Shown one piece after another: positions 30,311-34,290 of a stretch of DNA of 35,414 bases (within the stretch, counting starts at the first letter, position 1; each line of letters opens with the position of its first letter). The stretch is taken from contig JAAFIC010000030.1 of the NCBI GenBank assembly GCA_013298565.1, positions 1 through 35,414 of the forward strand, in the 5' to 3' direction. The position numbers were made by a program, and so were the translations under genes. The notes beneath the pieces were generated by a model. It ran no database searches and was not told the DNA's origin. It saw only the letters and a list, made by a program, of their open reading frames with translations. Source of the stretch: Alphaproteobacteria bacterium (GTDB lineage Bacteria > Pseudomonadota > Alphaproteobacteria > Elsterales > Elsteraceae).

Positions 30311-31480
30311 ATGCCGAATGATTTTCCGTCGCTGAATTTCGCTCTTGGGGAAGAGTTGGAGATGCTGCGCGCTAGCGTTCGCAGCTTCGCTATCAACCGC
30401 ATCGCCCCCATCGCCGCCGAAACCGACCTGAAGAACGAGTTTCCCGCCTATCTGTGGCGCGAAATGGGCGATCTCGGTATTCTCGGCGTGACCGTGCCGG
30501 AGGAATATGGCGGCGCGGGCATGGGCTATCTCGCGCATACGATTGCGATGGAAGAGGTTAGCCGCGCTTCCGCCTCCATCGGCCTCTCCTACGGCGCGCA
30601 CTCCAACCTGTGCGTCAATCAACTCAAGCTAAACGGCACCGACGCGCAAAAGCGCCGCTACCTGCCCAAGCTGCTCTCAGGGGAGCACGTTGGCGCGCTC
30701 GCCATGTCCGAATCCGGCGCGGGGTCCGATGTCGTGTCCATGCGCCTGCGCGCCGATAAAAAGGGCGACCGCTATGTGCTGAACGGCACTAAAATGTGGA
30801 TCACCAACGGCCCAGACGCCGACACGCTCGTCGTCTATGCCAAAACCAACCCAGACGCTGGCGCGCGCGGCATGACCGCCTTCATCGTGGAAAAAACCTT
30901 CAAAGGCTTCCGCACCGCCCAAAAGCTGGACAAACTCGGCATGCGCGGCTCCAATACCTGCGAGCTGGTGTTTGAAGACTGCGAAGTGCCGGAAGAAAAC
31001 GTGCTGAACGCCGTCGGGCGCGGTGTGAACGTGCTGATGAGCGGCCTTGATTTCGAGCGCGTCGTGCTCGCGGGTGGCCCCATCGGCATTATGCAAGCCT
31101 GCCTAGATGTCGTCATCCCCTACCTGCACGACCGCCACCAGTTCGGCCAGCCCATCGGTGAGTTCCAACTGATGCAAGGCAAACTCGCCGATATGTACGT
31201 AACCCTCAATGCCAGTAGAGCCTATGTTTACGCGGTGGCGGGCGCCTGTGATCGCGGCACCGTCACCCGCAAAGACGCTGCCGGCTGCATCCTCTACGCC
31301 GCCGAACGCGCCACCTGGATGGCGCTCGAAGCCATCCAATGCCTCGGCGGTAACGGGTATATCAACGAATACCCGACGGGGCGATTGCTGCGGGATGCGA
31401 AACTATATGAGATAGGGGCGGGCACGAGCGAGATTCGCCGCTGGCTGATCGGGCGTGAGTTATTCGCGGAGACGGCCTAA
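30311..31480 (+). CDS. ivd: Isovaleryl-CoA dehydrogenase
   Basis: A 389-residue FAD acyl-CoA dehydrogenase of the leucine breakdown pathway, oxidising isovaleryl-CoA to 3-methylcrotonyl-CoA and passing electrons to ETF. The fold motifs are clear: [27 protein letters not shown] and [20 protein letters not shown]. The catalytic base is placed as in isovaleryl-CoA dehydrogenases: Glu249 in [19 protein letters not shown], while [12 protein letters not shown] near the end lacks the glutamate used by medium- and short-chain enzymes. This specificity feature makes the call stronger than a generic acyl-CoA dehydrogenase. It follows a LiuR-like gene. Normally further liu genes would come next, but an accessory block intervenes. 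Confidence 0.93.
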
Positions 31481-31517
31481 ACTCGGAACCGTTGGTCTGA
31501 CTGCTGGATATACCCCC

Positions 31518-32693
31518 ATGTTTCTCGAAAGCATTCACCTGCAAGGCTTTTTGTCCTTCCCCCCGGATTCGCCGCCGATTCCGCTGAAGGCGCTGAACGT
31601 GTTGATCGGGCCGAACGGGTCGGGGAAGTCGAATATTTTAGAGGTGTTTTCGGTACTGCGGGCGGCACCCAGCGATATTTCGATGGCGTTTCGACGGGGC
31701 GGGGCTGCGGCAGAATGGCTTTTCGCCGGGGATCAGCGTCGGGAATACGCAACGATCCAATGTGACTTAGCGTCTCCCTTGTGGTTGAGTTCCTATACGC
31801 ACAACATAGCACTCCACGAAAACGCTGAGAAAATTAGTTTGTATGGGGAGTCGATTGCCGACCCCTCTATTTCACATAAAGCGCTTCCCTATAAAATGCT
31901 TGAAGGTAAGGCTCATATTCTGCCCGAACACACTGCATTAATTCAAAATAATGATCGATCTCAAGATGAGTATGAGGCGATTTCTGTTCTTACGGGGCAA
32001 TCTGTTCTAAGCCAAATTAAAGACAGGATGCGGTTTCCGTTTCTCGCGCATATTTCGGGATTTTATGAAGAGATTAGTATCCTATCCGATTGGTCGTTTG
32101 GTCGCCGTTCCGCTTTTCGTCGCGCCAGCGAGACAACGACCATTTCGCATCGCCTTTTGGACGATGGCAGCAACTTACCCGTTTTCGTGAATGAGGTTTT
32201 ATTTCGCAAAGAAGTAGAATTAAATCGCGCGATTGAACGCTTTTTACCGCGTTTCAGTGGGATTAAAACGCGCGTATTCGATGGGTCCGTGTCGCTGTAT
32301 CTGGTTGAACGAGGTCTTCAACGCCCCATTCCCGCTTCCCGACTCTCCGACGGAACCTTACGTTTTCTGGCCATTGTTGCCACACTGCTGCACCCGGAGC
32401 CACCGAGCCTCCTATGTTTAGAGGAGCCAGAACTCGGAATGCACCCGGACGCGGCGGCACTCCTCGCCGAACTGCTGGTTGAAGCATCCCAGCGGATGCA
32501 AATTATTGTTACCACGCATTCGGACTCTTTTCTCTCTGCGCTCACACGCCACGATGTGAATGTGTTGGTCACGGAGAATTTCGGCCAGGGAACGGAAGTA
32601 ACCCAAGTTGACCAGGACCAACTCGCGTCGTGGTTGGACGAGTACACGCTGGGCGATTTATGGCGTATCGGCAAGATCGGCGGTAATCCATGA
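31518..32693 (+). CDS. AAA/RecF-like ATPase of an ATPase-DUF4276 pair
   Basis: A 391-residue SMC/ABC-like ATPase of the AAA_21 type. Walker A is LIGPNGSGKSN at residues 30-39; a signature-like SRLSDGTLRFLAIVA precedes Walker B LLCLEEPELGMHP (about 298-310), with the switch His in VTTHSDSFL (about 331-339). The middle holds a helical insertion. The C-terminal YTLGDLWRIGKIGG segment is conserved in ATPases paired with DUF4276. Start 31518 begins at the expected first strand; a GTG at 31455 would overlap the ivd gene. The stop overlaps the DUF4276 start (ATGA). Base composition dips in the central part. Paired OLD-like ATPases are often anti-phage sensors; that role is inferred here. Confidence 0.86.
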   Translation: MFLESIHLQGFLSFPPDSPPIPLKALNVLIGPNGSGKSNILEVFSVLRAAPSDISMAFRRGGAAAEWLFAGDQRREYATIQCDLASPLWLSSYTHNIALHENAEKISLYGESIADPSISHKALPYKMLEGKAHILPEHTALIQNNDRSQDEYEAISVLTGQSVLSQIKDRMRFPFLAHISGFYEEISILSDWSFGRRSAFRRASETTTISHRLLDDGSNLPVFVNEVLFRKEVELNRAIERFLPRFSGIKTRVFDGSVSLYLVERGLQRPIPASRLSDGTLRFLAIVATLLHPEPPSLLCLEEPELGMHPDAAALLAELLVEASQRMQIIVTTHSDSFLSALTRHDVNVLVTENFGQGTEVTQVDQDQLASWLDEYTLGDLWRIGKIGGNP

Positions 32694-33322
32694 TCTCAAA
32701 ACGGCGAACCCTGGAAATATACATCGAAGGGGGCGGGGCAACGCCGCGCCAACGCGCGCCCCTGCGTGTGGCCTTTACGGCGCTGTTTGCCGAAGTCTCG
32801 GCAAAGATTGAAAAGAAGAACTGGAAACTGCAACTCACGCTCTTGGGAAGCGGATCGGAAGCCTTCAAAGCCTTTTCCGCCGATGCACGCAGGCTCAAGC
32901 ATGGCGACGCGCTGCTGTTGCTTATCGACGCCGAATATCCCCTCTCAACCGACCCCCTGGAGCATATCCGTACTCGCCTGAAATGGCCGACCGACGGGTT
33001 GCCGCCGGAGGATATTCACCTGATGGTGCAAACGATGGAAACCTGGCTCGTGAGTAATCCAACCGCGCTCGCCGATTTCTACGGCCCCGGTTTCCGCGCC
33101 GATAAACTGCCGCAGCGTACCGCGTTGGAAGAGGAGCCAAAAGCCGATTGCCTGCACAAACTCGAACAGGCCAGTGCTGGCGCGCGTGCAGGCAAGTATC
33201 ATAAAGGCGACCATTCGGCAAAACTCCTAAAACGCCTCCGCTGGTCAGACATCTGCACCCGCCTACCCAGCGCCGCCCGCTTGCACCAGCGCGTCGCTCT
33301 TGTCACCGGAGTAACAGAATGA
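32690..33322 (+). CDS. DUF4276 family protein, probable TOPRIM-like partner
   Basis: A 210-residue protein coupled to the ATPase by a four-base overlap. The DUF4276 pattern is complete: EIYIEGGG near the start (Glu13), LLLLIDAEYP (Asp80 and Glu82), a HLMVQTMETWLVSNP block (residues 110-124), YGPGF, and YHKGDHSAKLL (170-180). The early Glu and the later Asp-x-Glu in strand-end positions recall TOPRIM nucleases such as those of OLD proteins, which use such acidic residues to bind metal, and I infer the protein may cut nucleic acid under control of the ATPase. No experimental function is known to me. Confidence 0.82.
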   Translation: MISKRRTLEIYIEGGGATPRQRAPLRVAFTALFAEVSAKIEKKNWKLQLTLLGSGSEAFKAFSADARRLKHGDALLLLIDAEYPLSTDPLEHIRTRLKWPTDGLPPEDIHLMVQTMETWLVSNPTALADFYGPGFRADKLPQRTALEEEPKADCLHKLEQASAGARAGKYHKGDHSAKLLKRLRWSDICTRLPSAARLHQRVALVTGVTE

Positions 33323-33375
33323 CCATCCTGGAAGACGCCACCTTGCGGTAGGCTGATCGAACGGGGGCTGGTGTC

Positions 33376-33420
33376 GCGGGGCGCTGCCCCGCACCCCGCC
33401 AGGGGGAGGCCTCCCCCTGG
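33376..33420. repeat. Double-hairpin GC-rich repeat element
   Basis: Two adjacent hairpins: GCGGGGC (33376-33382) with 33386-33392, loop GCT; then the perfect 22-base palindrome 33399-33420 (half CCAGGGGGAGG). Similar GC-rich paired palindromes are scattered between genes in alphaproteobacteria. It marks the junction between the DUF4276 gene and the AT-rich DUF2971 gene and may also end the first transcript. Confidence 0.7.
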
Positions 33421-33453
33421 ACCCTAGGCTTCTTGACTGAAGAGGATATTGAA

Positions 33454-34290
33454 ATGACTTTTGATGTTGACCAACGGTTCAGTGATTGTTCGTCAGATAT
33501 GGGAGATTTTGAATTTTTTCATTATACTTCAGTTTCTTCTTTGTTAAGTATTATAGAATCTCAGAAAATTAGATTTACTCATATCGGCGCATTGAATGAT
33601 GCGGACGAAATGATGCGTGGATTGCATTTGTTAGAAACTCATTTTCCCAAAAAAGATTTTTCTCTACTTCACTTATATATAGGAAATTTTAAGAACAGAC
33701 TTCGCTGCGCAGATTATAAAAATTCTATTCTTCCTTTTGTTTTTTCGCTTTCAAAGGAAAATGATAATCTCCCCATGCTTCGAGGGTATGCAAAAGATGG
33801 TGCTGGGGTGATCATAAAATTTAACAAATATTCCATAGAAAATATAAATAAAAATTTATATTTTCAGTCTTGTGCTTACTCTAATAATTATGTTCATAGC
33901 AGTTTAACTGATGGTTTTATTGTGAAATTTATTGATGCAATGTATGAATTTTACCAAGGAAAAAGCATTGATGATAATCAAGGAATAGAATTTCTTGGAA
34001 ATGCTCAGAGAGCTATAGCGATTGCAGCGGCATCAATAAAAAATTCTGATTTCAAATATGAAAGAGAAATTAGAGGAATTTTATTTCCTAAATCAGAAGA
34101 TATAAAGTTTATAGAGAGAGATTCGAAGATAGTTCCTTATGTTGACGTACCTATAAATCAAGATTGCATAACAGAAATAATTGTTGGGCCAAAATTTCCT
34201 GATGAGAGTTTCAATTTTCTAAAATTGATCGGTCCAAATAAATTGAAAGAAGGAATGCCTATATCGAGAATTTCAAGCTCGTATCGCTAA
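33454..34290 (+). CDS. DUF2971 family protein, AT-rich, probably horizontally acquired
   Basis: A 278-residue soluble protein. The DUF2971 pattern is visible: FFHYTSVSSLLSIIESQKIR at the start, then THIGALNDADEMM, a middle LPMLRGYAKDGAGVIIKF, and FKYEREIRGILFP with TEIIVGPKFP late. His23, Tyr112 and Glu203/Glu205 recall the H-Y-E arrangement of some ADP-ribosyltransferases, but this is only a guess. AGAGGA seven bases before the ATG at 33454 sets the start. Codon use is strongly A/T biased, far from the neighbours, a clear sign of transfer. It follows a hairpin repeat and precedes the thiolase by 19 bases. DUF2971 proteins often occur in accessory and defence regions; function unknown. Confidence 0.8.
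   Translation: MTFDVDQRFSDCSSDMGDFEFFHYTSVSSLLSIIESQKIRFTHIGALNDADEMMRGLHLLETHFPKKDFSLLHLYIGNFKNRLRCADYKNSILPFVFSLSKENDNLPMLRGYAKDGAGVIIKFNKYSIENINKNLYFQSCAYSNNYVHSSLTDGFIVKFIDAMYEFYQGKSIDDNQGIEFLGNAQRAIAIAAASIKNSDFKYEREIRGILFPKSEDIKFIERDSKIVPYVDVPINQDCITEIIVGPKFPDESFNFLKLIGPNKLKEGMPISRISSSYR

Follow-up and report, generated by a model that had tools for sequence, protein, structure and literature searches.

This locus raises the question of whether a DUF4276 protein, encoded directly behind an ABC ATPase, is a TOPRIM nuclease, and whether the two genes thereby form a split, OLD-like ATPase–nuclease pair, as an earlier note on the sequence had proposed. The window, i.e., the whole stretch of DNA that was analysed, covers 35,414 nucleotides of contig JAAFIC010000030.1 from an alphaproteobacterium of the family Elsteraceae. 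As a prediction, the proposal is supported, with a D-x-E motif replacing the expected D-x-D. The DUF4276 protein (gene B) is probably a two-metal TOPRIM nuclease and the effector half of the ABC-ATPase/TOPRIM unit HEC-01, in which gene A provides the ATPase. The segment and its two genes are as follows.

31475..33363, no strand assigned: ATPase–DUF4276 segment, not present at this locus in two same-genus genomes (blastn).
31518..32693, + strand: gene A, an SMC/Rad50/PtuA-type ABC ATPase of 391 aa, HEC-01A (Pfam, PADLOC, fold, motifs).
32690..33322, + strand: gene B, a DUF4276 protein of 210 aa, HEC-01B (Pfam, PADLOC, structure model), with a predicted TOPRIM nuclease domain at about residues 5–115 and a C-terminal helical domain at about residues 116–206.

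The reading frame of gene A is open from 31455, and the ATG at 31518 was chosen as its start. All motifs of an ABC ATPase are intact: Walker A (GPNGSGKSN), the signature (LSDGTLR), Walker B (LLCLEEPE), and the H-loop (TTHS). The protein matches AAA_21 in Pfam (E=6.5e-37) and HEC-01A in PADLOC (PDLC04177, E=1.5e-117), with weaker PADLOC matches to AriA (4.9e-34) and Old (2.6e-16). The best fold matches of its model (pLDDT 91) are the heads of SMC and Rad50 (Z 19–23), and the defence ATPases PtuA of Septu and of a retron are also matched (Z ~19); neither AriA nor the OLD ATPases occur among the best 50 fold matches listed. The GC content falls to 45% in the middle of gene A (31700–32299), while its ends and the DUF4276 gene stand at 55–60%; this dip may coincide with the variable insert region or point to a mosaic origin.

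Genes A and B are tightly coupled. The stop of the first and the start of the second share the sequence ATGA, a 4-bp overlap at 32690–32693, and both reading frames are intact in the window. The same ATPase lies directly upstream of the DUF4276 gene, abutting or overlapping it, in 78 of 81 loci, 80 of them from a scan of the genome collection with a 14-sequence alignment and one from a scan of viral contigs. The three exceptional loci are one that begins at a contig end and two with fragmentary frames. A search for a fused ATPase–DUF4276 protein gave none: the roughly 130 DUF4276 matches, from 61 genomes, lie in frames of at most 377 aa, compared with 540–800 aa for most of the OLD-like TOPRIM matches of this phylum.

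The distribution of the pair is patchy. A genome search across 398 members of the phylum gave a close relative of gene B in 22, its own genome included, the other matches being 29–35% identical to it; DUF4276 as a whole is widespread, occurring in 61 of 299 sampled genomes of the phylum. One close relative occurs on viral contigs, and none was found in plasmid and phage records. The window was also compared by blastn with the corresponding loci (L233, L234) of two same-genus genomes, G003 and G002, whose acyl-CoA dehydrogenase genes are 84.8% and 89.9% identical to that of the window at the DNA level. In both, no more than about 50 bases separate the dehydrogenase from a GC-rich palindrome, behind which comes a DUF2971-like gene, judged as such by eye from its start. 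A thiolase comes after this gene in G002, and the contig of G003 stops before that point. In the window, the pair is located between the dehydrogenase stop and the palindrome. Since two same-genus genomes lack the pair at this locus, it forms a compact segment of ~1.9 kb that was either gained here or lost there.

Further features of this interval were observed. The palindrome is double and GC-rich (GCGGGGCGCTGCCCCGC... CCAGGGGGAGGCCTCCCCCTGG, window 33364–33423), matches the same-genus genomes at 100% over 50 bp and at 97% over 60 bp beside a dehydrogenase gene at 85–90%, and is present as a single copy in its own genome when up to three mismatches are allowed. It is followed in the window, at 33433–34290, by a DUF2971 gene (PADLOC PDC-S31, a weak match) of ~30% GC amid 60% GC, and the two same-genus genomes carry an apparently different DUF2971-like gene beside the palindrome at the same spot. 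The interval between the acyl-CoA dehydrogenase and the thiolase is suggested to be an exchange hotspot.

Alternatively, the pair as a whole could serve in DNA repair or genome maintenance, similar in spirit to Rad50–Mre11 or RecF–RecR, rather than in defence. This reading draws on the resemblance of the gene A model to SMC and Rad50 heads and on the neighbourhoods of related pairs, which are chiefly ordinary metabolic genes; the raw share of defence-like neighbours (restriction-modification, DarG, PsyrT, Dpd, and Ppl type genes) is about one in ten. However, the patchy presence in the phylum and the absence of the pair from this locus in the two same-genus genomes speak against it, as do the match of gene A to PtuA and retron PtuA and the fact that PADLOC lists the pair as a candidate defence system. 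A repair function is therefore considered unlikely.

The preferred reading, a TOPRIM nuclease under the control of an ATPase, depends on gene B. Its frame starts with ATG and reads MISKRRTLEIYIEGGG...LLLLIDAEYP...QTMETWL...YHKGDHS, placing E13, D80, E82, E117, and K172 exactly where the earlier note had located them. The family call made there is also borne out, as the protein matches DUF4276 (PF14103) with 56.9 bits, above the curated cut-off of 30.2; PADLOC identifies it as HEC-01B (PDLC04201, E=2.4e-46). In an alignment of 80 relatives, to which the window protein is 26–34% identical, E13, G14, D80, M112, M116, E117, W119, K151, and Y170 are invariant, residue 82 is E in 78 and D in two, and K172 is kept in 78. 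Acidic positions with 95% or more conservation across the aligned proteins are E13, D80, E82, E117, E147, and an aspartate of the family at position 123. This set (A2) was gathered with the pattern MExWF[LV]AD, so the conservation of residues 116–123 within it is circular, and a set collected independently of the motif provides the fair test for those residues. There, E13 is found in 23 of 23 proteins, and D80, E82, E117, W119, Y170, and K172 in 24 of 24 each; E117 lies in METWL and K172 in KGDHS, the blocks described in the earlier note as invariant-looking. Judged from the aligned sequences, the conservation of the gene B motifs is above chance.

The fold was approached by structure prediction and comparison, as the earlier note had advised. 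The AlphaFold2 model built from the 80-sequence alignment (pLDDT 94.4, pTM 0.89) contains strand 6–12, helix 19–32, a further helix at 34–41, strand 45–51, helix 55–66, strand 74–80, helix 89–97, strand 109–112, and helix 116–121, with further helices up to residue 206. Four beta–alpha units followed by a helical domain correspond to the TOPRIM order. E13 is positioned just past strand 1, D80 and E82 close strand 3, in agreement with the strand-end positions that had been expected for them, and E117 starts the helix after strand 4. In the VIA-align comparison, the best row is the C-terminal region of Burkholderia pseudomallei (Bp) OLD (6nk8; 169 of 198 residues, rmsd 4.4) at Z 8.9, which is barely above the Z of 7–8 typical for models without a clear match. 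Entries of X. campestris OLD come second (Z 8.1–7.8; 6njw, Z 8.1), GajA follows (Z 7.3–6.9), and the top ten also include T. scotoductus (Ts) OLD (Z 6.6) and AriB from the AriA–AriB complex (Z 6.5, 162 residues aligned). As Z values near 8 are modest, the case is built on the best seven rows all being OLD or Gabija TOPRIM regions, on coverage (134–169 residues for OLD, GajA, and AriB), on the register of individual residues, and on profile comparison. Foldseek alone returned no significant PDB match to the gene B model, TOPRIM structures included, and none among viral models, where an RloB-like protein ranked first (prob 0.94), in keeping with the assignment but weak. Searches of PDB sequences with the single protein and with the 80-sequence profile found no relative of gene B. 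Taken together, the model makes a TOPRIM fold highly probable.

Profile comparisons bring in two further TOPRIM families, assigned by PADLOC: DUF4435, the AriB family, and RloB, i.e., AbiLii. With hhalign, DUF4276 scored 37.5 against DUF4435 (best of 25 column shuffles, 17.5; reversed, 18.7), and E13, D80, and E82 were aligned with E28, D84, and D86, which are invariant in ten DUF4435 proteins. The score against RloB was 40.4 (best shuffle, 18.1; profile match 73–84%), with ME-x-W-L paired with CFE-x-WLL and Y-x-K-G with Y-x-K-G. The main DUF4276 branch scored 67, and the ATPase family, used as a negative control, gave 0.4%. Against fused OLD TOPRIMs, the score of 20.4 was at the noise level (reversed, 20.8); the link to OLD is thus structural only, and a sequence relationship to OLD is not claimed. 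The two-gene layout and the ATPase type fit the description of the pair as split and OLD-like.

The following residues of gene B are candidates for its active site.

32726..32728, + strand: codon of E13, predicted TOPRIM metal-A glutamate (invariant, structural register).
32927..32935, + strand: D80-A81-E82, predicted D-x-E metal site (conservation, profile alignment to D84-x-D86 of DUF4435).
33032..33046, + strand: T115-M-E117-T-W119, motif after strand 4, with helix 116–121 (aligned with CFExWLL of RloB).
33140..33205, + strand: K151 ... Y170-x-K172, conserved basic and aromatic residues of the helical domain (Y-x-K-G aligned in RloB).

The structural alignments start, in the model and the structure respectively, at 4 and 391 (6nk8), 7 and 371 (6p74), 4 and 17 (8v46 chain D, AriB), and, for GajA, 7 and 373 (8wy4) and 5 and 371 (8x5i); a further GajA row (8jq9) starts elsewhere and is uninformative on the register of E13. 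If strand 1 is ungapped, E13 falls on residue 400 of 6nk8, 377 of 6p74, 26 of 8v46, and 379 of GajA. The last of these, E379, is presumably the TOPRIM glutamate of GajA. E400 and E377 are metal-A ligands in Bp OLD (PMC6755086) and Ts OLD (PMC7049728), and replacement of E26 of AriB by alanine abolishes cutting (PMC12409363). In Bp OLD, metal A is held by E400, D455, and D457, metal B by E404, T506, and E508, and K562 is used as well (PMC6755086). Of the glutamate and later Asp-x-Asp that the earlier note gives for TOPRIM domains, the glutamate is matched by the invariant E13, whereas the second motif of gene B is D-x-E at the place occupied by D-x-D in other TOPRIM proteins. E117 is proposed as a metal-B glutamate similar to E508, a correspondence that we infer; T115-x-E117 matches T506/E508 by position only, and residue 17, at the position of E404, is alanine. 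By analogy, K151 or K172 may take the place of K562.

Gene B might also retain the TOPRIM fold while being catalytically weak or inactive in this organism, with a structural or sensing role. The window protein does depart from its relatives, to which, as stated, its identity is low: residue 17 is A (D/E in 41 of 80), 97 is L (D/E in 75 of 80, in one alignment), 123 is N (D in 79 of 80), 167 is A (K in the family), and 184 is R (D in the family). However, E13, D80, E82, E117, K151, Y170, and K172 are all retained and neither frame is disrupted. Moreover, the departures at residues 17 and 123 argue little for a loss of activity, because altering the metal ligands of Bp OLD one at a time did not discernibly affect its cleavage (PMC6755086). 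Inactivity is accordingly improbable, and on the predicted structure gene B is quite likely an active metal nuclease. Least probable of all is a generic Rossmann-like sheet of the dehydroquinase, LacI, or PurE kind, in which the acids would be coincidental or serve another metal or nucleotide site: such folds head the insignificant Foldseek rows and dehydroquinases reach Z 6.6 over ~100–115 residues, but unrelated VIA-align rows (Z ≤6.6) mostly span ~90–120 residues against the longer alignments of OLD, GajA, and AriB, and the acids sit at TOPRIM positions and align with DUF4435/AriB well above shuffles.

For the putative TOPRIM nuclease, a mechanism can be proposed, in which the binding of metals, the cutting activity and its substrate, the regulation by gene A, and the part played in defence are all predicted properties. 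Metal A would be held by E13, D80, and E82, with E117 helping to hold metal B and either K151 or K172, lysines in the helical domain, assisting at the scissile phosphate. The SMC/Rad50-like ATPase would most likely form an oligomer that keeps the nuclease inactive, by analogy to AriA/AriB of PARIS and to AbiL. Upon a phage cue, the ATPase would release or activate the nuclease, and the freed enzyme would cut host RNA or DNA, so that the infection is aborted. AriB cuts tRNA once released from AriA (PMC12409363), and neutralisation of TOPRIM_OLD/RloB toxins by neighbouring AAA proteins has been validated (PMC10440598). On balance, we lean towards gene B being an ATPase-controlled anti-phage effector. 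More speculative, and rather doubtful at present, is the idea that HEC-01 is a further, always-split ABC-ATPase/TOPRIM immunity class with its own D-x-E site and helical lysines, whose nuclease, after release by the ATPase, targets one particular host RNA, tRNA-like as in the case of AriB.

The pair can be placed among known systems. It matches both models of the PADLOC candidate HEC-01 in adjacent genes, with no difference at the sequence level. With PARIS it shares the location of ATPase and TOPRIM in separate genes (AriA, and AriB, a DUF4435 tRNase), and AriB aligns with gene B with the E, D, x, and D/E positions in register. It differs in that AriB belongs to DUF4435 and has D-x-D, whereas gene B belongs to DUF4276 and has D-x-E, and in that gene A matches the HEC-01A models far better than AriA. 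AbiL/RloB is likewise a two-gene ATPase and TOPRIM system, AbiLii being a TOPRIM_OLD protein by HHpred and AbiLi its partner ATPase (PMC10440598). F/M-E-x-W-L and Y-x-K-G are common to RloB and DUF4276, but the Pfam families are separate, the metal motif of RloB is D-x-D (FDKD), and its sequence lacks an EGGG run. Pfam finds only DUF4276 in gene B, with neither DUF4435 nor PF13707; the relations to these two families are remote and seen by profile only. OLD of classes 1 and 2 and GajA give the best structural matches across the TOPRIM and helical domains, with E13 in register; OLD of classes 1–3 carries ATPase and TOPRIM in one chain, unlike the separate genes of the DUF4276 pair.

The plan of a split ATPase and TOPRIM is established, through PARIS and through RloB/TOPRIM_OLD toxins that AAA proteins encoded next to them neutralise (PMC10440598; PMC10568477; PMC12839542), so the kind of system is known, and the contribution here consists of the TOPRIM assignment of DUF4276/HEC-01B and the candidate residues. 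The word DUF4276 is absent from the literature searched, although an earlier TOPRIM assignment may exist elsewhere, e.g., in the 2020 survey of ABC ATPases (gkaa726); that literature holds no mechanism for HEC-01, the one relevant mention being a list entry (PMC12724379). The assignment offers a likely mechanism for an anti-phage candidate system that is listed but uncharacterised, and links HEC-01, AbiL/RloB, and PARIS as variants of one ATPase-plus-TOPRIM plan. As it names likely catalytic residues and a division of labour, it makes HEC-01 directly testable.

A last observation concerns the main DUF4276 branch (e.g., L119:1414-2136), which reads EGQTE ... DFYAFP ... HEFEALLF ... APSKR and has D-x-Y in place of D-x-D/E. 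On these motifs, metal binding might vary between branches within the DUF4276 Pfam family.
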